Shown piece by piece: positions 8,677 to 58,651 of a stretch of DNA of 64,000 bases. The position numbers and the translations under genes were made by a program. Position 1 is the stretch's first letter. Each line of letters starts with the position of its first letter. The DNA comes from Sulfurimonas sp. GTDB taxonomy: Bacteria > Campylobacterota > Campylobacteria > Campylobacterales > Sulfurimonadaceae. Where the stretch lies: assembly GCA_030949825.1 (NCBI GenBank), contig JAUZSC010000007.1, positions 62,001 through 126,000 of the forward strand, read 5' to 3'. Under the pieces are notes generated by a model, which saw only the letters and a program-made list of their open reading frames with translations, ran no database searches and was not told the origin of the DNA.

Positions 8677-9528
8677 TTATCTCTTTATGTATTGGGCAAT
8701 GACTGTATCTGTACTCGCTATACTTGCAAGTTGAGCTTCATAGGCTTTACTTAAGTCTTCTGAATCTAAAAAAGCACCCCATTTTTGATGCCCTCCCGGT
8801 TTATCATGAGAGAGCCAATAAAGATGATTTGATAAAGAGTATCTTTGAATATACTTGATAAATTCCTTCTCAACCCCACTTATTTTTTAAACAACAACTC
8901 TAAAGTTTTGTCATTATAAAGAAAAAGATGTGGACTCCAATATGTAAAGTTTGAGAATGCTTCATTTTTGTAAAGTGTTAAAAGTGCATCATTGGAATTT
9001 GGGACTTCAACTATGAGCTTCCCACCTTTTTTTAATTTCAAAACAAGAAGTTTTAAAATTTCCACAGGATTCGCTAAATGTTCAAGAACATGAAATGCTG
9101 TAATAACATCATATTTTGCATCTTCTAAAGTATTTATATCTTTTGTCAGAGGAACATTGTTTTTTGCATAGTGCGATATTACTTTATTATCGAGTTCAAT
9201 CCCTATAACAGATTTTGCTATTTCTTTAGCCTGTATAAGGTAACCCCCTGCACCACTTCCAAAATCTACAATTTCTTTATTGATTATCATTTCTTTTACA
9301 AATTCAAACCTTCTTTTATCATCGACTAATGTTTCGTTAAGCCACTCTGAAATATTTAAATCTTCAGACATACTCGAATCTTCATAGTATTTCTCAGAGA
9401 TATGTTCTTTTAGAAGATAAAAACACTAAACCACATGCATCGCATTCAAAAATATTTAGCGTGTTATTATCTCGAACACTCCCATCTCTGATGCTATGTT
9501 GAGTACAGCCACATAAATAACATTCCAC
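8677..9528 (-). pseudogene. SAM-dependent methyltransferase with N-terminal Cys-pair motif, two frameshifts
   Basis: A GTG start overlaps the upstream stop (TAGTG). The first section carries CYLCGC and CDACG Cys pairs like those of sugar C-methyltransferase N-terminal zinc-binding segments. The track ORF 9371-8880 holds the SAM domain (VDFGSGAGGYL, FHVLEHL, GGKLIVEVPN). The reading resumes after LLFKK in another frame (WLSHDKPGGHQKWG) and stops at 8677. Removing one A near 9405 and adding one near 8886 restores about 283 residues. It probably methylates a sugar in the flagellar glycan pathway; the specificity is unknown. Confidence 0.72.
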
Positions 9529-11420
9529 TATAGTTTATTTTCCATTCTCTCTAAACTCACCCAAAAACCCTCACCATTATTTTTGTGCCCTTGCCATACT
9601 TCGGGAATAAATGAAGCATCTGGAGAAAGCGTGTTTATGATTGGATAAATATTCTCAAAATCTACATTTCCCTCACCCACTTGAATACCCTCTCCATCAA
9701 CGCCCGTGCCATCTGAAATATGATAATGTGCTGTATAAGGAGCTAACTTTCTTGTGTACTCAATATGATCCCAATCAAATTTATTACAAGCGAGATGCGA
9801 ATGTGAAATATCTTGACAAATACGAAGCTTTGTTTTCTCACAAAAATCGATGACCTCTTCTGGGTTAATAAAAATATTTTGATATCTCTGACCACCAAAT
9901 AACCAAGGAAACGGTGCCATGTTTTCAGGTAATAACTCTACTCCATCCAAGTTCAATTGCGAAATAGAATCAATTAAGTTTTCGTAGTATTAGTGGTCGT
10001 TTTTCTATTTCTAAAACTTCATCTTTTGTAAAGCCACCACAATGAACTACAATCTGAGGAATTGAAGTTTTTGAAAATACTTCTGCATGCCTAAAGTTTT
10101 ATCAATAACTCTTTGAAGATGTGCGATTGATTTTTTTCTATATACTTCATCAGGAGAACAAAGATCTAAAAGATGGTCATCTTCAAAAAGTTCAGGTGCG
10201 TGAACGATATACTCACAAGAATATTCACGTGTTAAGAACTGTGACAAATCTTCTGTAATATCTTTAAAACTCATATGAAATTCTACAGAATCTGGATGTG
10301 TGTTTTCCATCAAAGCATTAATATCATGAAATCTAACTGGTAATGCCCATGTTCTATTAAAATTGTAATTCTTTTTCGCGTGGATAAGCCCGCCTAAGTC
10401 TGATTTAAAGAGTGCTTTTCCTTTTTAATATCTCGAATGGCTTTATAACCAACTATTTTATTTAAATATTGTGGGCTTAAACCTTGTCCAGGGCTCTTAA
10501 TCTCAAACATATCTTTTGTAAAAGTATCGCCTTCTTTTATATCAGCTATTGCATAAATACTTTTAGCTAAGTTTTCTCTATTTATCATCTCACCTTGAGT
10601 AACAATTCTATCTTGATTACTTCCAAGTGCCAGCTCAAGTTCTCGTATCCCATCTACAAGTTTTTTAAAGTCATCGTATTCTAAACTTGCACTATGGTCT
10701 GGTCCTTCCATATTTCTATCGAGCGTAACATGACGTTCTATAATTTTAGCGCCCATAGCAACCGCAGCAATGGATACCGCGATACCTCTTTCATGACCAA
10801 GAATAGCCAACAGGGAACATTATACTGCTCCAATCTTTGTAAATATCTAAGGTTAATATCTTTAAATGGCGCAGGATATGTTGAGTTACAGCGGAAGAAG
10901 TGCAAAATCTGCTTTTAGACGTGTTAAGAACTCTACAGTTTCATCTATCTCTTCTTTACTGCTCATTCCAGTTGATAAAATAAGTGGCTTATTTTTTGCA
11001 ACTAAATATTCCAATAAATCAAAATTTGTCATATCCGCAGATGCTGTTTTAAAAGCAGGAACACCTATTTTCTCAATAGCATCTGCACTTGATTTATCCC
11101 AAGGGGTACACATAAAGATTAGATTTTTACTTCTTGCATATTCAGCTAAAGACTTGTACTGTTCATAAGTAAGTTCAAATTTTTCTAACAAAGCCCATTG
11201 TGTACTGTGTAGAAAGATCGCTACTTGTCATTTCAAGAGCATCACGTGTGTAAAGCTCTTTAAGATTTCGCATTTGGAACTTAACACAATCTACACCAAT
11301 TTTACTCGCTTGATTTATCATCTTTATAGCATTATCATAATTTCCATTATGGTTCGTTCCAATTTCGGCTATTATAAAAACTCTATCGCTTGTACCTATT
11401 TCATAGTTATTAATTTTCAT
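9528..11420 (-). pseudogene. NeuB-family synthase + SAF domain + xylose-isomerase-like TIM barrel (multiple frameshifts)
   Basis: Joined across several one-base shifts, the reading gives about 630 residues. The N-terminal NeuB domain (FIIAEIGTNHNGN, FMCTPWDK, NSTYPAP, GHERG, ERHVTLDR, GPDH) condenses PEP with a sugar to form a nonulosonic acid. A SAF/antifreeze-like domain follows (KSIYAIADIKEGD). A metal-dependent TIM barrel then begins near 10340 (VEFHMSFKDI, ICQDISHSHLACN, FIPEVWQGH). The track pieces are 11420-11175, 11191-10886, 10810-10394, 10313-10047 and 9956-9528. Junctions such as IKKGKALFKSDLGG read straight from SAF into the barrel, so the fusion looks genuine. The start overlaps the kinase gene by 11 bases. 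Confidence 0.75.
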
Positions 11421-12791
11421 ATTTTTCCTTTGTGACCCAACTTCGTAAGCCTATGTTATCAAATGTAAAGGTTTCTATCTCGAAACCTTTTTCTTTAAGC
11501 GAATGCATTAATTTTAATTTATTAAATGTCTGTACATAAAATAAAAAATAACCTCCACCACCTGCGCCAAGTAGTTTTCCACCTAATGCACCATTGCTAA
11601 GAGCATATTCATATATTTCATCCAAGTAAGGCGTTGTTATTTTTGAAGAAAAATTCTTTTTTACACTCCAAGCTTTGTGAAGGAGTTCACCAAAATCATC
11701 AAGTCTTCCCTTTAAGCAAACGAGACTTCATCTCTGTAGCAATTTCTTTTGAAATTTGTGCGAATTCTTGTGCCTTTTCTTTATTCATATTCAACTTTTG
11801 ATCTTCATGAATATTACCTGAGTTATGTGTAATGCCAGAATAACAAAGAATTAAAGAGTCTTCTAGTTCATTTACTATGCTATCTGAAATTCTAAGAGGA
11901 TTAACTATATTGTCATCATCTTTAAATTCCATAAAGTTAAAACCACCAAAGACTGTTGCGTATTGATCTTGCCAGCCACCTGCTAATCCTAGTTCAACTC
12001 TTTCTGCATGAAAAGCAAGTTCGGCTATCTCATAATCAGTAAATTTATTTTCTCTAAAGTTATTAAAAGACCCTATGATTGCGGGAGAGCTGAACTGCTG
12101 AACCACCAAGACCTGAGCCTACAGGAACATCACTGTATGTATAAAGTTCAAATCCAAAGTCAGGGTTAAGAAGCTTAATCACTGATTTGATTAAATCAAG
12201 CTTTCCGTCAAACTGTAACTCAGATATATCACTATAATTCACTTCTTCATCTAAATCATTAGAAAATATTTTTATCGTGTTGTCTGCTCTTTTTTGTAAA
12301 ATAGCATGCGAGAATTTATTAATCGTTGTGTTGAGCACTACTCCGCACTCTTTATAAAAGTATGTGGTAAGATCTGTTCCGCCACCAGCGAAACTAATTC
12401 TAACGGGAGACTTTGCCTTAGAAATGATTTTTTCTTTTTCATTCCAGTTAATATTTTTATGGGAGACCACCGAGACTAATTCATAGTTTTCATTAAGTAT
12501 AGGAATTATTTTTATTCGAGTATCTAATAGTTTTAAAATATTTTCTCTTGATGCATCTTTATCAAATAAATATACAAAATCTTTAAAAATACATGTTTCT
12601 ATTTTTAAGTTTAAATTCTTTTCAAGTAATAAAATCCTACGAATATCTCCATCAGTAGAACTTCCAATGATTTTTTGCTTATCGTGTATAAAAACTATAC
12701 CTGAATGGTTGTTTTCTATTTTGAGCAAGGCATCTTGGATACTTTCATTTTTGCTAATTAAGTATTGTTCTATTTTCATCATAATGCTCAC
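11410..12791 (-). pseudogene. CBS-domain GHMP sugar kinase (frameshifted)
   Basis: Residues 1-120 resemble a CBS pair (TDGDIRRILL, IKIIPILNENYELV). The remainder is a GHMP kinase with AGGGTDLTTYF, the ATP-binding PVGSGLGGSA and a C-terminal LGAGGGGYFLF. The GGGTDL motif is typical of HddA-like heptose/sugar kinases. The three ORF pieces (12791-12063, 12109-11699, 11625-11410) are joined by one-base shifts near 12085 and 11705. The track start is GTG; ATG codons three and four codons later are better candidates. It is the first gene of the glycan operon visible downstream of the flagellin remnant. The kinase presumably phosphorylates a sugar precursor. Confidence 0.72.
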
Positions 12792-31825: not shown

Positions 31826-33223
31826 ATGAATATGAATCGTAGAGACGCGTTAAAAGTAGGAGCAGTGAGTGTAGCTGCAGTAGCAGCAACAACAATAAGT
31901 GGTTGTGCAGAGACTGGTACAGCTGGTGCAGCTGCAGGTGGTAAAATGTTAGGTCATCATAAGGTACTTATCATCGGTGGTGGTATGGGTGGACTTACAG
32001 TTGCTAACAACTTAAAGAAAATTGATAAAAACTTTGATGTAGCAATTATTGAAAAAAATGACACTTTTATGGCTTGTCCAGTTTCTAATACTTACTTAGG
32101 TAAATTAGAAGGTATGAACCTAGGTACATTCGTATTTGATTATGCTGCACCAGTTGAAAAATATGGTTATGGTATGTTAAAATCAGAAGTAATCGCTATT
32201 GACCGTGCTGCTAAAGTTGTTACTACAGCTGCTGGTAGAGTTGGTTATGATATTTTAGTATTATCTCCAGGTATTGCTTACAACTACGAAGGTCAATTCC
32301 CAACTTGGTCAAAAGCACACGCTGCCGAAGTTAAAAGAGCTTGTCCTCCTGCAATGATTTCAGGTGGTGAACATGTTGCTTTAGAGCGTCAACTTAAAAA
32401 CATGGATGATGGTGATGTTATTATCGCTGCTCCATTTGGTAAATTCCGTTGTCCTCCAGCTCCGTATGAAAGAGCAGCAATGATCGCTGAATTTATGAGA
32501 AAAGAAGACATTCAAGGTAAAGTATATGTACTTGTTCCAGGTGCTAAATTTGCTAAAATGGCTGCATTCAAAGAATCTGCTAAAGACATTTATGGTGATA
32601 AAATCGTATATGTTCACCATGCAAAAGTTGATGATGTTGATGTTAAAGGTAAAACTGTACACTTCACTCAAATGGTACCATCAGGTAAAAAAGATGAAGA
32701 TGGCGATATGATTATGAAAGCTGTTAAAAAATCTCATAAATACCAAGTTTGTAACTTAATCGTTAATCACAAATCATCTCCAGTAGTTCAAATGGCAACA
32801 TTACAAACAACTGCAGACGCATTCAAAAAAGTTAAAATGGCTGGTTGTACTTTCCAAACTGCAACAGACAAAGATGTTTATGCTGTTGGTGATATTGTTG
32901 GTCACGCTATTCCTCCATCAGGTCAAACTGCTGTATGGGCTGGTAAACAATGTGCACTTGAAATTGCTCACCGTTTACATGGTAAGTCTTATACTCTTGG
33001 TGTTAAAACTACTCCTGTTAAAGCTGCAAATGTATGTTTTTCAATGGTTGGTGGTGCTCCTGAAGAAGGAATTATGGTTACTCACGACTTTAGCTGGACT
33101 GGTGCTGTTATCAAAGGTAAAGGTCATGTTCCTAAAGCTCCAAGTGGTAAATTCCGTTCTAAAAATACTGCAAAAGCTCTTCGTGACTGGTACCGTGGTA
33201 TCACAAGTGACTTATTCGCTTAA
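31826..33223 (+). CDS. fccB: Flavocytochrome c sulfide dehydrogenase flavoprotein-like subunit, Tat-exported
   Basis: This is a two-dinucleotide-domain flavoprotein of about 465 residues. The preferred start is the ATG after AAGGGG, giving a twin-arginine signal (MNRRDALKVG) with a Cys near its end. FAD binding is shown by VLIIGGGMGGL and VYAVGDIVG. ACPVSN holds the Cys expected to bind FAD covalently, and RCPPAPYERAAM matches the FccB signature with the second redox Cys. It would oxidise sulfide in the periplasm and pass electrons to a cytochrome. Codon usage is strongly biased (GGT, GCT), suggesting high expression. A Rieske protein and a cytochrome follow in place of a diheme FccA. Confidence 0.85.
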   Translation: MNMNRRDALKVGAVSVAAVAATTISGCAETGTAGAAAGGKMLGHHKVLIIGGGMGGLTVANNLKKIDKNFDVAIIEKNDTFMACPVSNTYLGKLEGMNLGTFVFDYAAPVEKYGYGMLKSEVIAIDRAAKVVTTAAGRVGYDILVLSPGIAYNYEGQFPTWSKAHAAEVKRACPPAMISGGEHVALERQLKNMDDGDVIIAAPFGKFRCPPAPYERAAMIAEFMRKEDIQGKVYVLVPGAKFAKMAAFKESAKDIYGDKIVYVHHAKVDDVDVKGKTVHFTQMVPSGKKDEDGDMIMKAVKKSHKYQVCNLIVNHKSSPVVQMATLQTTADAFKKVKMAGCTFQTATDKDVYAVGDIVGHAIPPSGQTAVWAGKQCALEIAHRLHGKSYTLGVKTTPVKAANVCFSMVGGAPEEGIMVTHDFSWTGAVIKGKGHVPKAPSGKFRSKNTAKALRDWYRGITSDLFA

Positions 33224-33244
33224 TCTCGACTCCTACAAAACTTT

Positions 33245-33268
33245 AAAGAAGGCGCTTATGCCTTCTTT
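33245..33268 (+). terminator. Stem-loop after the fccB-like gene
   Basis: AAAGAAGGC and GCCTTCTTT form a perfect 9-bp stem with a 6-base loop, 22 bases after the stop. The T-rich 3' arm gives a partial intrinsic terminator. It may cut the transcript so that the flavoprotein is made in excess over the Rieske and cytochrome genes. Confidence 0.6.
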
Positions 33269-33347
33269 ACTCTAATACAAATTCTAAGTACTATTTTTAT
33301 ATTATTTAGAATTGTTATTTACAATTAAAAAACTAAAAGGAACACCC

Positions 33348-34076
33348 ATGGAAAGAAGAAATTTTCTAAAAGTTGCTGGTGCAACTGGAGCGATGATAGC
33401 TGTTTCACCTTCAACAATTACAGGTGAATTACGCGCAAGTGATGGAGCATTATTTAGAGCCTACGAAAGAGTACAGTTAACAGATGCTGAGGGAAATCCT
33501 TTAAAAACTTCTGCATTAAAAAAAGAAGAAAACTATGTTTTTAATTATCCTCTTGTTGCTACGCCTGCTATATTACTAGACTTGCCAGAAGCTACACAAA
33601 AAGATGTTGAGCTCTTATCTGAAGATGGTGAAAAATATATCTGGAAAGGTGGCACAGGTTCAAAAGGAACTATAGTTGCATATGTTGCGATATGTGCACA
33701 CCAAATGGCGCACCCTACACCTGATGATAGTTTTATTCAGTACTGTAAAAAAGGTGAATCAGGTGTATTTGCTGATAAAGCTGGAATTATTTGTTCATCA
33801 CATATGGCTTTTTATGACACTGGATCTGGATGTAAGCGAGCAGAAGGTAGTCCTGCAACTGAACCTTTAGCGGCTATTGTTCTTGAAATAGCCCAAGATG
33901 ATACTATCTGGGCTGTTGGTGTTTTAGGACCTGAGAGATTTAAAAGCTATTTAAAAGTTTTCAAACCAGAGATGAAAAAATACTATGGTGGAAAAAGAAA
34001 AGCTAAAAAGCAAACAACTGGAACTGCTACAACCCTAGCACTTAAAGATTACACTAAAGAAATAATCATATACTAA
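33348..34076 (+). CDS. Tat-exported Rieske [2Fe-2S] protein
   Basis: This is a 242-residue protein. The ATG at 33348 (MERRNFLKVAG) follows an AAAAGGAAC RBS and gives a twin-arginine signal; the track's earlier TTG is unlikely. The Rieske cluster ligands are C117-A-H119 and C149-S-S-H152. C133 and C162 could form the disulfide seen in bc1-type Rieske proteins. The fold would carry one [2Fe-2S] cluster in the periplasm. It lies between an FccB-like flavoprotein and a small cytochrome c, so it probably relays electrons between them. The C-terminal 30 residues are Lys/Thr-rich. No cytochrome b gene is nearby. Confidence 0.82.
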   Translation: MERRNFLKVAGATGAMIAVSPSTITGELRASDGALFRAYERVQLTDAEGNPLKTSALKKEENYVFNYPLVATPAILLDLPEATQKDVELLSEDGEKYIWKGGTGSKGTIVAYVAICAHQMAHPTPDDSFIQYCKKGESGVFADKAGIICSSHMAFYDTGSGCKRAEGSPATEPLAAIVLEIAQDDTIWAVGVLGPERFKSYLKVFKPEMKKYYGGKRKAKKQTTGTATTLALKDYTKEIIIY

Positions 34077-34093
34077 ACCCCAAGGATAAAAAA

Positions 34094-34510
34094 ATGAAAA
34101 AAATAATAGTAGCAATAATAGCAATCATGTTAACATCTTCTCTTTTTGCATCTGATGTAAAAGCAACAAAAGCTGAGAAAAAGCTTGCATCAGATATGCG
34201 TGTTATGCTTGACTCAATCGTAGATATGCAAAAAGCTGGTTTTTATGATGATGTTAGAGTTATCAAAAAAGCAACAGATAGACTTATAGTAAGTCTTGAT
34301 TCTCTTTTAGCAGTTGACCCTGCTTCATATTTGCCTAAAGAACAAAAACACGCTGGTAAGTTTGCTAAAAAGAGAGAAAAAATGATTCGAATGTATGCCA
34401 ATGACTTATTAGAATCTTTAGAGGCTAAACAATACGATGATGTAATCGAAAATTATAATCAAATTATTAGACAGTGCTATTCTTGCCACCTTCGCATTAG
34501 AAGAAGATAA
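34094..34510 (+). CDS. Class II-like cytochrome c, periplasmic
   Basis: This 138-residue protein has a Sec signal (KKIIVAIIAIMLTSSLFA). The single heme motif CYSCH lies close to the C-terminus (residues 128-132), as in cytochrome c' and other class II four-helix-bundle cytochromes. The body is helical and rich in Lys and Glu. It is 17 bases after the Rieske gene and in the same operon, so it may be the electron acceptor of the flavoprotein-Rieske chain. Its heme ligands cannot be told; class II types are often five-coordinate. Confidence 0.8.
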   Translation: MKKIIVAIIAIMLTSSLFASDVKATKAEKKLASDMRVMLDSIVDMQKAGFYDDVRVIKKATDRLIVSLDSLLAVDPASYLPKEQKHAGKFAKKREKMIRMYANDLLESLEAKQYDDVIENYNQIIRQCYSCHLRIRRR

Positions 34511-35447: not shown

Positions 35448-36632
35448 ATGAAAAACATTCTCATCTTAGGTGGTGGTTTTGCTGGTGTAGAAGCTGCAAT
35501 TTACCTCAAAAAACAAAAATTTAATGTGACACTTGTGAGCGATAGAGATTACTTTTATATTTATCCAACTTCTATATGGGTAGCGACAAGAGAAAGTGAA
35601 TTTAAAGATGTCTGTGTAGATTTAAAAGAGCTCCAAAAGGCACATGGCTTTAGTCTTATTGTTGATTCTGTTAAATCATTATCTGCAAAAGAAAGTACTG
35701 TTACGCTAGAGAGTGGAAAAATTCTCAATAATTATGATTACCTCATTGTTGCAATGGGCGCACATAAAATGAAACCAAAGGGTGCAGCAAATACTCTGTC
35801 AATATGTGGCGCACCTGAACAAGCCCTACTTATTCGAGACAAGATAGATGCTCTTATAGAAAAAGGAAGTGGTAAAATTTGTTTTGGTTTTGGGGCTAAT
35901 CCGCATGATACATCTGCGGTACGCGGGGGACCTGGTTTTGAGCTTATGTTCAACCTGCACAATCTACTTGAGAAAAAAGGTATTCGGGACAAGTACGAAC
36001 TAACATTTTTTGCACCAATGCCTGAGCCAGGAAAAAGAATGGGTCCCAAAGCACTTAAAATGATGGGTGGATTTTTTGAAAGACTTAATATCAAAACACA
36101 CTTTGGAAAAAAAATAGATAGATTTTTAAAGTCAAGCATCGTATTTGAAGATGATTCACGATTAGAATCCGACTTTACAATGTTTATTCCTGCAGGCGAT
36201 GGTCATGGACTTTTAAAAAAATCAGGCTTACCAATGAATGATGCTGGATTTATTAAAACTGATGATTTCTCTCAAGTTATTTTTGAAGATGAAACAATGC
36301 CGACAAATATATATGCCATAGGTGATGTAGCTGCACTTGAAGGTTACGAGTGGAGAGCAAAACAAGGTCATATAGCAGAAGTAATGGCAAGAAATGTCGC
36401 ACATAATATTTACGCGAGAGAGCATGGCTCAAATGATTTTAAAGGTTATAATGAGCATCTAAATATTCTTTGTCTTATGGATACAGGTGATGGAGGGGCA
36501 ATGATTTATAGAGATGAAAAAAGAGCCTTCATGATACCGATGCCCTTTATTGGACACTGGCTGAAAAAAGGCTGGGGTTTATACTGTCGTTATTCAAAAT
36601 TAGGGAAAATTCCTCGAATACCCGGGATGTAA
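35448..36632 (+). CDS. Sulfide:quinone oxidoreductase-like FAD flavoprotein
   Basis: This 394-residue two-dinucleotide-domain flavoprotein has the FAD-binding ILILGGGFAGVEAA at the N-terminus and IYAIGDVAAL near residue 285. The middle part (CFGFGANPHDTSAVRGGPGFE) and the C-terminal LCLMDTGDGG resemble SQR subgroups found in Campylobacterota. Several Cys are present, but I cannot assign the catalytic pair by eye. There is no signal peptide, so it is probably a peripheral inner-membrane protein that reduces quinone. NADH dehydrogenase-like activity is an alternative. It follows the EamA gene with a 62-base gap. Confidence 0.68.
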   Translation: MKNILILGGGFAGVEAAIYLKKQKFNVTLVSDRDYFYIYPTSIWVATRESEFKDVCVDLKELQKAHGFSLIVDSVKSLSAKESTVTLESGKILNNYDYLIVAMGAHKMKPKGAANTLSICGAPEQALLIRDKIDALIEKGSGKICFGFGANPHDTSAVRGGPGFELMFNLHNLLEKKGIRDKYELTFFAPMPEPGKRMGPKALKMMGGFFERLNIKTHFGKKIDRFLKSSIVFEDDSRLESDFTMFIPAGDGHGLLKKSGLPMNDAGFIKTDDFSQVIFEDETMPTNIYAIGDVAALEGYEWRAKQGHIAEVMARNVAHNIYAREHGSNDFKGYNEHLNILCLMDTGDGGAMIYRDEKRAFMIPMPFIGHWLKKGWGLYCRYSKLGKIPRIPGM

Positions 36633-51614: not shown

Positions 51615-52751
51615 TTATTCTTCGTCTTCGTCTTCATCTTCTTCGTCTTCATCTTCCTCATCGTCACCATCGTACATTTCTAGTTCTTCATAAGATCTAA
51701 AAACATTACCTGGGCTTAAAAGATAATACAAGTCTTTCTCTCTAAATTCTTCAAGTGTAACATATTTAGTAATGTAATCAGGATCGATTTCATCTTCAAT
51801 ACCTTCAAGAACTCTATTTTTCAAAAGACTAAAATATTGAACACATTCATCATCAGCTGTTTGATCTGTAATAAAACCATGACCAGGAACTAAATGATTC
51901 CAATCTCTAGCTTGAATTGCCTTAAGCGCTTCAAGTTGACCGATAACAATACCATCTCTATTTGAAGTCACGCGACCATTCATAACAACATCAGCAACGA
52001 GTACAACTTTATCTTCAGGAAGATATAAAAACCAATCTTCTTCAGAGTGAGCATAACCAACTTTTACATATTCCATTTTAATACCATGAAGTGTAAATTC
52101 TGTTGTATCATCAAAAGTTTTTTCAATAGGAGCTAGTTTAGTACCTCTAATTGCATTTTGATAAAGCGCTCGAATCATTCTCGTTTGAGGTGGAATCTCA
52201 CGCGTATTTTCATTTGCTTTACCAGTATGTTCATCAAAACCTAAGTAATTTACATTAATAGATTTAGGACCATATATCACAGCATTTTGCGTCTCTGTAT
52301 AGTAATTATTACCTAACCAGTGATCATCATGCTCATGACTTACAATAACTGTTTTAACAGGTAAATCAGCAATCTTTCTCATAGCTGCATGCGCTTGTTT
52401 AGCAAAAATATACGATGGTCCAGTGTCCCATGCAATCCAACTATCATCACCTTGTATGTAACAACTGTTTGACATATCACCAGCATTTTCTTTAGTTGGC
52501 ATTTCCATAGCACCAAAGAAACACCATACTCTGTCACTCACTTGTACAGGTTTTAAATTATAGTCCCATTCTGGATTTCTTCCAGTACGAGAGCCTTCTT
52601 TAAAACCTTCATGATGCCAATCGTAAACAATAAAGTTACCATCTACATCAAGCTTGTTAGGCTCTGCAACTACAATGCTTTTATTAAAAATAAATGGCAT
52701 AGATACAACAAATGCCAAGATTAGAAATAAAATAATTAATTTAACTTTCAT
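51615..52751 (-). CDS. Periplasmic metallo-beta-lactamase-fold hydrolase (SoxH-like)
   Basis: This 378-residue protein has an N-terminal signal anchor (IILFLILAFVVSMPFIF). The metal motif is VSHEHDDHWLGN (HxHxDH), with the later AHSEEDWFLYLP and LVPGHGF completing the dizinc site. It resembles SoxH and quinoprotein-linked zinc hydrolases. The last 17 residues are almost all Asp/Glu (EEDEDEEDEDEDEE), which is unusual. It is the last gene of the soxCDYZ operon, a known place for SoxH in Sulfurimonas. Confidence 0.85.
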   Translation of the reverse strand: MKVKLIILFLILAFVVSMPFIFNKSIVVAEPNKLDVDGNFIVYDWHHEGFKEGSRTGRNPEWDYNLKPVQVSDRVWCFFGAMEMPTKENAGDMSNSCYIQGDDSWIAWDTGPSYIFAKQAHAAMRKIADLPVKTVIVSHEHDDHWLGNNYYTETQNAVIYGPKSINVNYLGFDEHTGKANENTREIPPQTRMIRALYQNAIRGTKLAPIEKTFDDTTEFTLHGIKMEYVKVGYAHSEEDWFLYLPEDKVVLVADVVMNGRVTSNRDGIVIGQLEALKAIQARDWNHLVPGHGFITDQTADDECVQYFSLLKNRVLEGIEDEIDPDYITKYVTLEEFREKDLYYLLSPGNVFRSYEELEMYDGDDEEDEDEEDEDEDEE

Positions 52752-52759
52752 AAGTATCC

Positions 52760-53065
52760 TTATTTAATTTTTTTCTTACCTGTTTGTTTTGTACCATGGT
52801 TATCAGTAGTTTCAAAAACGATTTTATCGCCTTTTTTACCTTTGAATTTGAATTTAACAAGTGGATTTTCTGACATGAAACCACTCATTGTTACTTCATA
52901 AACAACTGCGTCATTTACTTTAGCTATTACATGGTTAATATATTCTGGTTTGATACCTTTTTTAACTGACTCTTCTCTATCAGCCATAAGGCTTGTAAAC
53001 ATTGCTTTAACTTTTACAATACCTTTTTTTTCTTTTGCTTTGATTTTCATTTTTTTCTTTGCCAT
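52760..53065 (-). CDS. soxZ: Sulfur carrier subunit SoxZ
   Basis: This 101-residue protein starts at the internal ATG (MAKKKMKIKAKEKKG) with an AAAGGAAC RBS; the track start would overlap soxY. The Ig-like SoxZ fold shows KAMFTSLM, INHVIAKVND and NPLVKFKFKGKKGD. It pairs with SoxY, which carries sulfur intermediates between Sox enzymes in the periplasm. It has no own signal, as is normal, and is co-exported with SoxY. Confidence 0.93.
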   Translation of the reverse strand: MAKKKMKIKAKEKKGIVKVKAMFTSLMADREESVKKGIKPEYINHVIAKVNDAVVYEVTMSGFMSENPLVKFKFKGKKGDKIVFETTDNHGTKQTGKKKIK

Positions 53066-53129
53066 TTTAGTTCCTTTATATTTTATTATTTTTTCTAACA
53101 TTTCTAAATTATAGGGCGATGGGGTTAAA

Positions 53130-53594
53130 TCAACCTCCACAACCACCTATTGATACATCTATCTCTTTAGTTGCCATATATAAAGCACCAGTTCCTCTTA
53201 CTTTACCAACAACTGTAACGAATGCAGTTTGTCTCATTTTAATTCTGAAATCATAATCTATGATTGCGCCTGCAGGTATTGAGAACACACATGATAAACA
53301 TCTAGGGTTAGCATCTTGGAAAAGTGCAAATGACTCTAAATCAAGTGATGATTTAACAGTAATTGGAATTGATCCACCATTTTCAGCTAGTTTTGGAGCT
53401 TTAAATGAGAATAATTTCTCATCAGTTTTCATGCCAGCGCTTCCGTAAAGTGCTTTAATACCGTCTGCTGTTTTCTCTACTTCCCATGCTTTTGGCATAG
53501 TTGTTCTAAAGTTTACTGCTCTTAAATCCGTTGTTGGTGCAACTATAGCAGCAAATGCCGCTAAACCTACGCCTAAAAATTTTCTTCTATCCAT
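53130..53594 (-). CDS. soxY: Sulfur carrier subunit SoxY
   Basis: This 154-residue protein has a Tat signal (MDRRKFLGVGLAAFAA). Its C-terminal IGGCGG is the hallmark Cys that binds thiosulfate-derived sulfur as a swinging arm. The middle NPRCLSCVFSIPAGA carries two more Cys, unusual for SoxY of classic Paracoccus type. It is exported with SoxZ. The gene is between soxD and soxZ. Confidence 0.95.
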   Translation of the reverse strand: MDRRKFLGVGLAAFAAIVAPTTDLRAVNFRTTMPKAWEVEKTADGIKALYGSAGMKTDEKLFSFKAPKLAENGGSIPITVKSSLDLESFALFQDANPRCLSCVFSIPAGAIIDYDFRIKMRQTAFVTVVGKVRGTGALYMATKEIDVSIGGCGG

Positions 53595-53614
53595 TTTATT
53601 TTCCTTATTTTAAT

Positions 53615-54853
53615 TTAATGTTTTTCTTTACTATTTTCTATCATCCACTCAACTATCAGTTTAACATCTGAAGGTAATAAATCATCATTACCACCTTTAG
53701 CTGGCATTCCACCCATACCGTTTATAGCATTGTAGATAACTTTCTCTTTACCCTGAGCCATAAGTTCACGCCATGCGTTTGCATCACCAACCGCTGGAGC
53801 ACCCATCATATCAGTAGCATGACAAAGTTTACAAGATTCATTATACATTGTTTCGCCTTTAGAAACAACACTGTTTTCGTCTACTGGTGGTAAATCTCGT
53901 GCAGTTGCATAAGGTGGTCTTACATCAGTCATCTCGTAACCAATTCTAACTACTGAAGCTTCTGTTTTACCGTCTAATCCACCTAAGTCTTTACAGTCTT
54001 TCATACATCTTTGAGCTATTGTTCCGCCAGAACCAATATTTTTAGCACGATCAGCAAAAAATGCTTTTACATCAGCTGGACCAGTTGGACCATCAATATT
54101 TGGATAAAAACCATCATTATTTGCTAAAACAACTTTTGTTAATTTTTCTGCATTTAATACATACTCATCATCCATTTCTACGCCATCAATAACTACCTCA
54201 TTTTGAGCTAGAATATACGCTGTAATAGCATATGTTTCATTAGCACTTAAACTTTTAGGTGTTGCATATGGCATAGCATCTCTGATATATGTGAAAAGAG
54301 TAGTAGCTTTTGGCCAGTATGTACCAACAGTTCGTTTTGGTGCATCAGTTGCTCCATACGCTCTTTGGTTCTTAAGCGTAATAACGATACCATTTTCATC
54401 TTTACTTTGGTTACCACCCGCGAGTTGTGGATAACCATTACCACCGCCACCAAAGTCACCATGACACGATGCACATTGTGCTTCATAAAGCTCATCGCCT
54501 TCTTCAACAGAGCCTTCACCTGCAGGTAAACCTGTACCATCTGGTAATGCATCTACATCCCATGCTGCGATTTCATTTGCAGTTGGCGTTCTACCAAAGC
54601 TAACACCCTTAGTGCTTTGCTCATTGTAGCGGTATGCAGTTTCAACTCCATGCGCTCTAACATATGTAACACCACCATCAATAGCAGTATTATGCTTAAT
54701 TGCATAAGCACCTGTTGTATTTGTTGTTGTAGCCATACTGGCACTTGAACCAGTCGCATTAGAAGCAGAGCAACCTACTGCACTAAGTAATAGTACAGAA
54801 GCAGCAAAGGCTGAAGTTCCGATTACAATTGATTTACGATCTAATTTGAACAT
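53615..54853 (-). CDS. soxD: Sulfane dehydrogenase cytochrome subunit SoxD
   Basis: This 412-residue diheme cytochrome c has a signal with a lipoprotein-like Cys (LLLSAVGCSAS). Heme motifs are CASCHGDF near residue 126 and CKLCHATD near residue 340. Met ligands are likely in RDAMPYATP and GGMPAKGG. It takes electrons from SoxC during oxidation of SoxY-bound sulfane sulfur. It overlaps soxC by 20 bases, so the two are made together. Confidence 0.93.
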   Translation of the reverse strand: MFKLDRKSIVIGTSAFAASVLLLSAVGCSASNATGSSASMATTTNTTGAYAIKHNTAIDGGVTYVRAHGVETAYRYNEQSTKGVSFGRTPTANEIAAWDVDALPDGTGLPAGEGSVEEGDELYEAQCASCHGDFGGGGNGYPQLAGGNQSKDENGIVITLKNQRAYGATDAPKRTVGTYWPKATTLFTYIRDAMPYATPKSLSANETYAITAYILAQNEVVIDGVEMDDEYVLNAEKLTKVVLANNDGFYPNIDGPTGPADVKAFFADRAKNIGSGGTIAQRCMKDCKDLGGLDGKTEASVVRIGYEMTDVRPPYATARDLPPVDENSVVSKGETMYNESCKLCHATDMMGAPAVGDANAWRELMAQGKEKVIYNAINGMGGMPAKGGNDDLLPSDVKLIVEWMIENSKEKH

Positions 54854-56135
54854 TGTTTACCTCCCCTTTAGCATTAATTTCCCAAGTATGTATCGCATTT
54901 CTATGATATACGCCCTCAACACCAACAACTTTTTTCTCTTCATTAACAGTTGGTTGAACATTATCAGAATCATCGTATGAACGACTTGCTAATAATAATG
55001 GTTTTCCTTCATATTTGTACATGTAAGAAAATCTAGTCCATGCTTTAGGAAGTACTAAACCTTTAAGAGAAGCCTCTACCCAGTTTTTACCACCATCAAA
55101 AGTAATATCTACACCTTTAATAGTTCCGTGTCCAGACCATGCTAAACCTTCAATCTCAATTAAGTCACCTTTTTTAAGATCAGTCCATGGTACTTCAGGA
55201 CAAGGTGAAGTAATAACAGAGTTTGTTTCAAGCGCATAAAAATGCTGAATAGCTTTACCACTTGCAGTAAGGGCTGTATACTTAGAAGTTTCTTCTTTAG
55301 CATACCATGGTTCAGTACCAAATTCTAGTCTTTTAAGCCATTTAACACATAAGTTAGCTTCCCAACCCGGCGCCATTAAACGAACTGGATAACCCTGCTC
55401 ATCTCTTAATGCTTCACCATTTTGTCCCCAAACTAACATAACATCTTCAAGAACTTTCTCAATTGGTAATGTTCTACTCATTTCAGAACCATCACTACCC
55501 TCAGCAAGCATCCACTTAGCTTCTGGTTTAAGACCAAGTTCATCAAGAATTGTTTTTAAACGAACACCTGTCCATTCTGTACAACTCATCATACCTCTAA
55601 CAAATTGTACTGAATTAAACTGTGGACCTTTCCACTCTGCAGCACCATTTGATGGACATTCTAAAAATAAGATTCTGCTTTCACTTGGATATCTCTTAAG
55701 TTGTTCTAAAGTTAAAACTATAGGCTTCTCAACAAGACCATGAATCATTAATCTAAATTTATTTGGATCAATATGCGCTACACCATTATGAGTACGAGTA
55801 AAGTGTAAACCATTTGGAGTAATGATACCTTTTTGCTCATGTAATGGTGTCATTGAAATTGCAGCGTGCATATCTCCAGCAGAAGACATAAGTGCTGATG
55901 TTCTTCTAACAACATTATGCTCATACTTTGATGGTACACCGTAAGGGTTTTCATTAATCTCAGACCCTAAAGTTGTTCCCCATTTAGGATGATGCATAAT
56001 ATTTTCATCATCCGCGAACACTGTTGCTGGAGCTAATATTGTAGCAGCCGCAGCAGCACTAACAGTTGCTGTTCTTTTGAAAAAATCTCTTCTACTAACA
56101 GATGCTAATTCTTCTGTTTCGAATTCTTTATTCAT
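54834..56135 (-). CDS. soxC: Sulfane dehydrogenase molybdenum subunit SoxC
   Basis: This 433-residue sulfite-oxidase-family protein has a Tat signal (SRRDFFKRTATVSAAAAA). The Mo-ligand Cys is in ILFLECPSNGAAEW. MAPGWEANLCVKWLKRLEFG and the dimerisation domain with VDITFDGGKNW are typical. With SoxD it removes six electrons from sulfane sulfur on SoxY. It is the first gene of the soxCDYZ-soxH operon and needs molybdopterin. Confidence 0.96.
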   Translation of the reverse strand: MNKEFETEELASVSRRDFFKRTATVSAAAAATILAPATVFADDENIMHHPKWGTTLGSEINENPYGVPSKYEHNVVRRTSALMSSAGDMHAAISMTPLHEQKGIITPNGLHFTRTHNGVAHIDPNKFRLMIHGLVEKPIVLTLEQLKRYPSESRILFLECPSNGAAEWKGPQFNSVQFVRGMMSCTEWTGVRLKTILDELGLKPEAKWMLAEGSDGSEMSRTLPIEKVLEDVMLVWGQNGEALRDEQGYPVRLMAPGWEANLCVKWLKRLEFGTEPWYAKEETSKYTALTASGKAIQHFYALETNSVITSPCPEVPWTDLKKGDLIEIEGLAWSGHGTIKGVDITFDGGKNWVEASLKGLVLPKAWTRFSYMYKYEGKPLLLASRSYDDSDNVQPTVNEEKKVVGVEGVYHRNAIHTWEINAKGEVNNVQIRS

Positions 56136-56617
56136 AAATTCTCCTCTTTTAATTGATTTACTATTTTCATTATATTCAATTCTGCTCTCTTTTTATCACA
56201 AAGTTGGCACAAAAGCAGATTATACCATTTTTAACTTTTTAAAGTTGCTTTTATAAGTATCAGGTATCTAAGATATAAAATATCCCTATACTGTGTTACG
56301 AATAGAAACACGATATATATAAATATATAATAATATTTATAAGTTTTATAAGGACTATTGACACAAAGCCTTAAAACTGATGATTAGTTTTTTTCAAATA
56401 CTCTCGCGATAAGGTCTATCATCTTTCTAAGAATTAATATCGATCCATAAACGATGAAAGTATATAAAAAAAGGATGAGAAAAGTTAGCTTTTTCATACA
56501 TAAGATTAAATCTAGTAATGGGGTCAGTGAATAAGTCACTATGCATGATAAAAGTCAAAATAAAAAAATGTCAGTAGATAATAAAAAAACTCTTTTTTGA
56601 TTTGCCCTTTAAATCGA
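56136..56617 (-). promoter_or_regulatory. AT-rich region upstream of soxC
   Basis: This 482-base gap holds the soxC promoter. An AAAAGAGGAGAA RBS lies just before the soxC start. I see no clear -35/-10 pair or sigma-54 site. The only candidate gene inside is a 37-codon reading frame on the minus strand. Confidence 0.4.
56384..56497 (-). CDS. Possible small membrane protein, 37 residues
   Basis: The frame MKKLTFLILFLYTFIVYGSILILRK would form one membrane helix with a basic start and an amphipathic end (MIDLIARVFEKN). It has no clear RBS. It lies between the hypothetical gene and soxC. Its form is like many real small proteins, but chance in AT-rich DNA is possible. Confidence 0.33.
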   Translation of the reverse strand: MKKLTFLILFLYTFIVYGSILILRKMIDLIARVFEKN

Positions 56618-57058
56618 TTAAGCATCTTTAGGCACATTTTCTTTTAATTCGATAAATAATTCTTTTCTCTTAATCACTAAGTTTTCTATAATAGTAGCTC
56701 CAACTTCTTCTCTATCTTGCCAATCTTCCTCATGGTAAATATCAAATAGTTTTTTGAAATACTCATAATGACTATCTGCACTTGTGATTTTGAAGAAGTA
56801 ATATCTTCTGTAGCTTATATCATCAATATCACAAATAGCAATTATTTTACCCATAGAGTCCGGATAGACTTCTTCTTTTATCCAATCTGTAAAAGACTCT
56901 GATTCTTTAAACCAATTGTATAAATGTAAATCTGAATCTTTAAAGAGTTCATAACTCTGGGCTTGTTCTTCATTTAATTCAAAAGAATAAATATTTTCAT
57001 CTAATTCAAATGTTTTAGTTGTATCATCATAGCTAACGAATTCAAATTTTACTTGCAT
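56618..57058 (-). CDS. Hypothetical acidic protein
   Basis: This 146-residue protein (VKFEFVSYDDTTKTFELDENIYSFEL) is very acidic and rich in Phe and Tyr. It has no signal or membrane helix. I recognise no family. It lies between the Tat-exported sqr gene and soxC on the same strand. Long open reading and regular codon use support coding. Confidence 0.6.
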   Translation of the reverse strand: MQVKFEFVSYDDTTKTFELDENIYSFELNEEQAQSYELFKDSDLHLYNWFKESESFTDWIKEEVYPDSMGKIIAICDIDDISYRRYYFFKITSADSHYEYFKKLFDIYHEEDWQDREEVGATIIENLVIKRKELFIELKENVPKDA

Positions 57059-57118
57059 CTAGAAATCCTGATTATAAAAAGTTTTGTTGGAAAATTTTAT
57101 TTTGTGAAAGACGAAAGG

Positions 57119-57152
57119 AGGGAGAAAAAGAAATTTTCTTTCTCTCTAAGAT
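57119..57152 (-). terminator. AT-rich hairpin after sqr
   Basis: GAGAAAAAGAAA and TTTCTTTCTCTC pair across a short loop just after the sqr stop. On the minus strand a T- and C-rich stretch follows. Likely a weak intrinsic terminator. Confidence 0.5.
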
Positions 57153-57154
57153 AA

Positions 57155-58651
57155 TTAAGCTTGTCCTGTTTTAAGCATCCCTATCATTGTCATTGGTTTG
57201 AGTGCGTACACTTTCATTAACCACCAAATCCATCTCTCAACTGTTGGGTCAAGTGGTACTAATGGAGTAGGCTTAACTGTCCAGTCAAACTCAGCAAGCA
57301 TAACTGTACCAATATCTGTAATAAGTGGACAAACAGTATAACCAGCATATTTAGCAGGTAAGGCTTTTCCTTCCATCTGAGCGATAAGATTATCTACAAG
57401 AATTTTATATTGTTTTCTAATTGATCCACCCGTTTTACCCATTGGTACTTGAGCGATATCTCCGATTGCAAAAACATTGTCAAATTTAACATGCTGAAGT
57501 GTTTCTTTGTTTACAGGTACCCAACCTTTTGCTGAACCTATATCTGATTCAGCAACTTCTCTAGGAGCAACAGCATCTGGAGTAATATGAATAAAGTCAT
57601 AAGGAACATTTACTCTTTCATGTTTAGAAATAACTTCAAAGTCTCTCATAATTGGATCGTAAGGACCTTTTTCTTGCCACTTAGCATCAAAGCTTGCAAT
57701 TTTCTTTTCTTTATCAATAGCTACAAGATTATGTCTATAGTGCCATTTAAAATTTTCTCTTTTAAACTGACCAACTATAGCGTCATGGTATTCGGGAACA
57801 CCAAACATAGCTCCACCATTTGGATAAAAACTAAGTTCAGCACCATCTCTAGCACCTGCTTCTTTTAGTCTTGCATTAGCAAGATACATGATTTTCTTTG
57901 GAGCACCACCACATTTGATTGGAGTACTTGGATGTGTGAAAAGAAATTGTACTTTTTTCTCGCCCTCTTTAACATTTTTTGCAAGCTCGATATACTTTTG
58001 CATTTCTGTCCAAGTCTTTTCAGCACCTTCTGCAGTATAGATTGAACAAATTCCTGTATCTTCACCAATAGCTTTATGAAGTCTTGTATTATCTCCAGAT
58101 GAGTATGCACGACCAGCATGTTCTAAACCTTCAAGTCTTTCAAAATCAAGTTGCAAACCAGTAGCTACGATTAAGTAATCGTATGTAACAACCTGACCCT
58201 TTGCTGTAGTTACTTCGTTATTTGTTGGATTAAAGTCAATAACTTTATCTTTGATTATCTTTACTCCATCAGGAACATAATCATCTCTCTTAAACTTAAT
58301 ATCATCAATATCCCAAATACCTGCAGCAACAAGTGTTTGTCCAGGTTGATACGATACAGATAATTCTTCAGGTTCAATAACAGTAATATCTGGATTTTCA
58401 AGATGATTTGTTAGTCTTGTCGCTGTACTCATTCCAGCAAGTCCACCACCAACGATTACGATCTTAGCGTCAACACCTGATTTAACAAGTTCTAATTGCT
58501 CTTTTTCCATTGCTGAAGCATTAGTAGTACCCATGAAAAGACCTGCACTAGAAAGACCTGCTAACTTCATAGCATCTCTTCTATTCATACCTTTTGAAGA
58601 TAAGTCTTTATCCATCTCCGATAACATTTTATTAAGATATTTATAATCCAT
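57155..58651 (-). CDS. sqr: Sulfide:quinone oxidoreductase, with twin-arginine N-terminus
   Basis: This 498-residue flavoprotein oxidises sulfide and reduces quinone. After about 20 residues comes a Tat-like signal (MNRRDAMKLAGLSSAGLF). FAD binding is shown by IVIVGGGLAGMST and VFAIGDIAQVP. The catalytic Cys are probably in PIKCGGAPKKIMYL and GYTVCPLIT. The IKCGGAPxKIMY motif is like type II SQR, though the Tat export and long N-terminus differ from mitochondrial-type enzymes. A C-terminal amphipathic part (WIWWLMKVYALKPM) would hold it to the membrane. It is placed near sox, giving a joint sulfide and thiosulfate pathway. Confidence 0.9.
   Translation of the reverse strand: MDYKYLNKMLSEMDKDLSSKGMNRRDAMKLAGLSSAGLFMGTTNASAMEKEQLELVKSGVDAKIVIVGGGLAGMSTATRLTNHLENPDITVIEPEELSVSYQPGQTLVAAGIWDIDDIKFKRDDYVPDGVKIIKDKVIDFNPTNNEVTTAKGQVVTYDYLIVATGLQLDFERLEGLEHAGRAYSSGDNTRLHKAIGEDTGICSIYTAEGAEKTWTEMQKYIELAKNVKEGEKKVQFLFTHPSTPIKCGGAPKKIMYLANARLKEAGARDGAELSFYPNGGAMFGVPEYHDAIVGQFKRENFKWHYRHNLVAIDKEKKIASFDAKWQEKGPYDPIMRDFEVISKHERVNVPYDFIHITPDAVAPREVAESDIGSAKGWVPVNKETLQHVKFDNVFAIGDIAQVPMGKTGGSIRKQYKILVDNLIAQMEGKALPAKYAGYTVCPLITDIGTVMLAEFDWTVKPTPLVPLDPTVERWIWWLMKVYALKPMTMIGMLKTGQA

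Follow-up and report, generated by a model that had tools for sequence, protein, structure and literature searches.

Discussions of how Sulfurimonas oxidizes sulfide usually center on the quinone-linked SQR. Among the described systems that use a flavocytochrome c sulfide dehydrogenase (FCSD) flavoprotein instead, the LSSB cluster, reported in 2012 from an Aquificae metagenome, carries dhsU1, a Rieske gene and dhsU2 followed by soxXYZAB, with a flavocytochrome-like ORF (PMC3504083). Its DhsU1 is a monomeric FCSD flavoprotein that oxidizes sulfide, not S0, sulfite or thiosulfate, and that does so alone with horse cytochrome c as the acceptor (PMC3504083).

For the genus itself, FCC genes were said in a 2015 review to be absent from all Sulfurimonas genomes (PMC4584964). 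In the main texts of three further papers, an FCSD gene of Sulfurimonas pluma is presented as a “non-canonical” Fcc (PMC10066037), Fcc is described as widespread in Campylobacteria (PMC12403661, PMC12029903), and, in a 2025 paper, Fcc is assigned to all members of the genus Sulfurimonas (PMC12029903). The main texts searched give the flavoprotein gene and its tree only, and neither a Rieske protein nor a class II cytochrome is mentioned in them. In the literature searched, which lay mostly outside subscription journals, no paper on a unit of a Rieske protein and a class II cytochrome in Campylobacterota was found.

Gene Organization of the Locus

The window analyzed in this study is a stretch of 64,000 nucleotides from Sulfurimonas sp. 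(contig JAUZSC010000007.1, positions 62,001 to 126,000 of the forward strand). The preliminary description of this DNA, made from the letters alone, had placed three genes at positions 31826-34510, and the ORFs that we obtained match it exactly, all on the plus strand. Gene 1 (31826-33223) encodes an FCSD-family, FccB-type flavoprotein of 465 aa with a Tat signal, as assigned from Pfam and PDB relatives. Gene 2 (33348-34076) encodes a Rieske [2Fe-2S] protein of 242 aa with a twin-arginine start, identified by Pfam, by profile and by its FCSD neighbor. Gene 3 (34094-34510) encodes a one-heme cytochrome of class II (cytochrome c′ fold) of 138 aa, whose signal is of the Sec type by inspection. 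Because the gap between genes 2 and 3 is 17 bp and the gene order is common to related loci, we infer that the three genes are co-transcribed.

A genome search found one FCSD gene and two Rieske genes, the other Rieske copy lying on contig C8. The unit had been described as lacking the usual cytochrome subunit FccA, and we likewise found no FccA/SoxE homolog in the genome with one SoxE query (best E 0.14). The class II cytochrome was the only heme protein seen in the operon, which had neither an FccA-type neighbor of the flavoprotein nor a sox gene.

Several other features of the window were recorded. A second SQR-like FAD oxidoreductase (35448-36632) lies just downstream of the unit and adjoins it only in Sulfurimonas-like relatives. 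A sox cluster occupies 51615-58651 on the minus strand, with SoxC (TIGR04555) and SoxZ both over the cut-off, SoxY, a cytochrome that is likely SoxD, a SoxH-related metallohydrolase and an SQR-like flavoprotein. Surface-sugar biosynthesis genes at 9528-12791 occur in short pieces in different frames (e.g., 10394-10810 and 10886-11191), a pattern suggestive of frameshifts or of errors in the assembly.

Conservation of the Unit in Campylobacterota

To place the locus in its phylum, 397 Campylobacterota genomes were surveyed; because the sample contains related, non-independent genomes, the counts are given without a probability. The Rieske profile gave strong matches in 40 of the 397 genomes (41 genes, 15 genera and 8 families), and two weak matches (G109 and G188) were dropped as noise. 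FCSD flavoproteins were present in 88 genomes, 48 of which have no Rieske protein of the gene 2 family. All 41 Rieske copies adjoin an FCSD gene, although for one copy, located where its contig ends, the neighbor is an FCSD fragment; the adjacency was established by reading 100 neighborhoods and, for two others, by comparing coordinates. Orthologs of the gene 3 cytochrome, scoring 126 bits or more, were found in 28 genomes and adjoin a Rieske gene of the gene 2 family in every one of them, whereas the next-best group of gene 3-like proteins scores 106 bits or less and is located elsewhere. About 12 of the 40 Rieske genomes have no cytochrome ortholog, one of them at a contig edge.

The order of flavoprotein, Rieske and cytochrome genes is kept in most of 21 named loci recovered by sequence search, and their flanking genes vary. 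Since the flanks differ between families and lineages, the trio itself is conserved as a unit. By the adjacency counts, the association is not a chance arrangement of one contig. The grouping of FccB-type flavoprotein, Rieske protein and class II cytochrome proposed in the preliminary description thus recurs across the genome survey, where the genes stay together. Plasmid searches returned comparator FCSDs only, with no Rieske relatives. As a separate observation, many stand-alone Campylobacterota FCSDs (L106-L142) have neither a Rieske nor an FccA gene adjoining them.

Features of the Three Proteins

The gene 1 protein matches the Pfam families FCSD_central (2.5e-22, 79.6 bits) and FCSD-flav_bind (1.4e-8, 35.4 bits), both above the cut-offs, and its best PDB relatives are the FccB chains 5n1t, 3vrd and 1fcd. 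The closest named relatives are from Sulfurimonas MAGs, at 84 and 83% identity. Cys84 (codon 32075-32077) aligns with the Cys that binds FAD in known FccB (5n1t, 3vrd), and the two cysteines of the redox-active pair, Cys209 (32450-32452) and Cys404 (33035-33037), align with those of known FccB and are invariant in alignment A1. The Glu near this pair is also kept in the alignment to known FccB. At the N-terminus, a reading of sequence patterns reveals a twin-arginine motif (RR, residues 5-6) followed by the lipobox ISGC with Cys27 (31838-31906). Because the Tat motif is followed by a lipobox in about 34 of 37 members of the same FCSD group, again by pattern only, the flavoprotein is probably a membrane-anchored Tat lipoprotein.

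Two features at the nucleotide level may bear on the expression of gene 1. Its similarity to the codon usage of EF-Tu (0.712) ranks first among the 63 ORFs of the window, against a median of 0.498 and 0.669 for flagellin, in agreement with the strong codon bias noted in the preliminary description; gene 2 comes 20th and gene 3 comes 13th. Just 3′ of gene 1 lies a 10-bp hairpin (33244-33269), which resembles a terminator when read on the minus strand and, on the plus strand, folds into a stable RNA structure (z −5.4). In five relatives, the same position between the flavoprotein and Rieske genes is taken by hairpins whose stem sequences differ, and the element is possibly a partial terminator that reduces read-through or a stabilizer of the 3′ end.

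For gene 2, Pfam returned TAT_signal, with the Rieske family just under the cut-off for the single protein and above it in the genome search, and profile matches included Sulfolobus SoxF (1jm1) and arsenite oxidase AioB. The cluster ligands had been read as C-A-H and C-S-S-H; these motifs (C116-A-H118 and C149-S-S-H152; 33693-33803) are invariant in alignment A2 and occur in 55 of 55 distinct relatives. Directly around the second motif, the window encodes CSSHMAFYD (33792-33818), with Ala then Tyr, where most relatives have CSSHLSAFD or CSSHLSAYD, with Ser. Loss of a hydrogen bond from this Ser may lower the potential of the cluster.

The gene 3 protein alone gave no match to Pfam, and a sequence search against the PDB returned nothing significant. 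However, 18 of 19 aligned orthologs match PF01322, Cytochrome C′ (E ≤ 0.5; best 5.7e-6). The AlphaFold model is a four-helix bundle (pLDDT 86), for which cytochrome c′ entries were the best hits of a fold search against the PDB (E about 0.004, TM about 0.65). The single heme site, as earlier placed near the C-terminus, is C-Y-S-C-H at residues 128-132 of 138 (34475-34489), whose cysteines and His are invariant in 42 of 42 orthologs. A candidate axial ligand, Met35 (34196-34198), is likewise Met in 42 of 42 and, in a weak profile match (E 0.45), aligns with Met7 of cytochrome cb562, the axial heme ligand of that protein. Met35 is therefore the likely second heme ligand, and its invariance and its alignment with Met7 suggest that the gene 3 product is an electron-transfer protein with a His/Met heme. 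The predicted lipoprotein anchor, the hairpin 3′ of gene 1, Met35 and the association of related operons with soxYZ described below go beyond the preliminary description. Elsewhere in the genome, the one distant gene 3 paralog, L174 (contig C8, about 250482-250889), adjoins the gene of an apparent membrane-fusion (efflux) protein, and the pairing of a gene 3 paralog with a membrane-fusion-like gene recurs at L010:11975-13224.

Proposed Electron Route

Taken together, we consider it somewhat probable that the unit is an FCSD-family sulfide dehydrogenase of the periplasm in which two separate electron carriers functionally replace the usual cytochrome subunit. As such, it is probably an uncharacterized electron route from sulfide to respiration in sulfur-oxidizing Campylobacterota. 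By analogy with the family, and given the conserved residues, sulfide would attack the Cys209-Cys404 disulfide beside the FAD held by Cys84, and would be oxidized to zero-valent or poly-sulfur with reduction of the FAD. The reduced FAD would then reduce the co-encoded Rieske cluster one electron at a time, and the electrons would continue through the class II His/Met cytochrome to the cytochrome c pool and the terminal reductases. A lipid anchor is predicted for the flavoprotein, which, judging from codon use and the hairpin, would be made in excess over the two carriers and might form a complex with them.

The support for a Rieske relay is genetic: the Rieske gene never occurs without an FCSD gene, the cytochrome ortholog never occurs without the Rieske gene, and the cytochrome is sometimes absent. 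The sulfide dehydrogenase reading is further favored by the retained FCSD domains and key cysteines, by a cytochrome fold and Met35 that suit electron transfer, by the pairing of one Rieske family with two FCSD clades, by the negative SoxE query and by the published sulfide-oxidizing activity of DhsU1 (PMC3504083). Neither carrier is universally needed, because 48 of the 88 FCSD genomes have no Rieske protein and about 12 of the 40 Rieske genomes have no cytochrome. The reduction of horse cytochrome c by DhsU1 alone (PMC3504083) likewise speaks against a strict need for the Rieske protein. If the unit carries electrons from sulfide to cytochromes, energy-yield estimates for the abundant Sulfurimonas-type bacteria would change, as would gene-based readings of “fccB”, and the partner gene, Rieske or FccA, would be a marker separating enzyme types.

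Phylogeny and Relation to the Sox System

An FCSD tree of 124 sequences, built by a quick method and with several long branches flagged, resolved three groups. The first joins known FccB and SoxF with those FCSDs of Arcobacteraceae whose genes are immediately preceded by the gene of a short one-heme cytochrome; at these loci (L144-L155) the upstream gene encodes a 98-aa one-heme class I cytochrome, a short FccA-like partner. The second holds the window protein and has a Rieske neighbor in 34 of its 39 rows, and the third mixes Rieske-linked FCSDs (21/45) with stand-alone ones. The Rieske label changes 7 times on this tree, compared with 41 in shuffles. According to the Rieske tree, the two Rieske-linked FCSD groups are served by a single Rieske family, which switched partners about 7-8 times. 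The FAD-binding Cys is replaced by Gly in nine FCSDs, and such proteins are found in the soxYZ-linked clade (L023:4693-6099, L017:4307-5653, L091, L092 and L097), where the FAD may be bound non-covalently or the proteins may serve a different function.

The main rival to the proposed sulfide dehydrogenase is a role as a SoxF-like accessory of the Sox system, in which the flavoprotein reactivates SoxY or loads it with sulfide-derived sulfur and the Rieske protein and cytochrome supply or remove electrons. The link to Sox genes is visible in the related operons, 12 of which contain soxY and soxZ, as well as in genome content, SoxY being present in 33 of 40 Rieske genomes compared with 85 of 357 others; in the window, the soxCDYZ cluster lies about 18 kb away. 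A title cited in PMC3504083 further indicates that Chlorobaculum SoxF stimulates thiosulfate oxidation in vitro. However, the FCSDs at the soxYZ loci, where complete, belong to the third group and not to that of the window protein, and the known SoxF sequences fall outside both Rieske-linked groups, those of Paracoccus and Ruegeria being placed with FccB. Moreover, seven of the 40 Rieske genomes have no SoxY, including three of the window's own genus with the full trio, so that the unit can work without Sox, which is not essential to it. An accessory role is hence in our judgment unlikely.

In the sister FCSD clade, where the same Rieske family often lies beside SoxYZ, the latter may take the sulfur, and a transfer from FCSD to SoxY is directly testable in these soxYZ-containing relatives. 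A farther-reaching form of the sulfide dehydrogenase reading is that the unit is a distinct enzyme type in which electrons can leave a lipid-anchored FCSD only through a dedicated Rieske protein, the chain from FAD through [2Fe-2S] to a class II heme being previously undescribed in sulfur oxidation, and that a second FCSD clade with the same Rieske family passes zero-valent sulfur directly to SoxYZ. This we put forward tentatively, as a possibility that is rather doubtful at present.

Another explanation is that the flavoprotein reduces class II or other soluble cytochromes directly, with the Rieske protein as a side component, such as a second entry point, a redox buffer or an assembly factor. 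It would fit the reduction of horse cytochrome c by DhsU1 alone (PMC3504083) and the common occurrence in the phylum of stand-alone FCSDs without a Rieske gene. Nevertheless, the Rieske gene is the more constant of the two partners in the operons, being retained where the cytochrome is missing, and we regard direct reduction as quite improbable. It is highly improbable that the unit runs reductively and uses the cytochrome pool as the electron source for reducing polysulfide or elemental sulfur. The potentials of Rieske and His/Met class II centers are usually too high for sulfur reduction. The gene set alone leaves the direction unfixed, and sulfur reduction or disproportionation supports growth of some Campylobacterota (PMC12403661), but characterized FCSD enzymes oxidize sulfide (PMC3504083).

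Comparison With Known Systems

The unit, read as a sulfide dehydrogenase with separate carriers, is not wholly new, as a link between FCSD and Rieske genes in Aquificae (PMC3504083) and FCSD genes of Sulfurimonas have already been published. With FccAB (1fcd, 3vrd and 5n1t), the gene 1 protein shares the flavoprotein family, the FAD-binding Cys, the redox-active Cys pair and Tat export. It differs in being a predicted lipoprotein of a separate tree group, accompanied by a Rieske protein and a class II cytochrome, with no FccA-type cytochrome adjoining it or found in the genome by the SoxE query. SoxF/SoxEF of Paracoccus, Ruegeria and Chlorobaculum is an FCSD flavoprotein too, and the sister-clade operons related to that of the window hold soxYZ, whereas the window operon has no sox gene and the SoxF proteins of Paracoccus and Ruegeria group with FccB.

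Of the two carriers, the Rieske protein has its closest solved relatives by profile in Sulfolobus SoxF (1jm1) and AioB, its second motif being AioB-like, but the sequence similarity is weak, the spacer between the ligand motifs is long (31 residues in most members of the family) and the operon partner differs. The cytochrome shares the four-helix bundle and the C-terminal CxxCH with cytochromes c′/c556 of class II; in contrast to the five-coordinate, gas-binding heme of cytochrome c′, its Met35 suggests a six-coordinate heme.

The “non-canonical” Fcc described from Sulfurimonas pluma and from other Campylobacteria (PMC10066037, PMC12403661, PMC12029903) are likewise FCSD flavoproteins, and they share phylum and genus with gene 1. 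The Aquificae LSSB cluster shares with the window an FCSD gene adjoining a Rieske gene and the same conserved cysteines, and its flavoprotein has measured sulfide dehydrogenase activity. It comes, however, from a different phylum, and there two FCSD genes flank one Rieske gene with sox genes attached.
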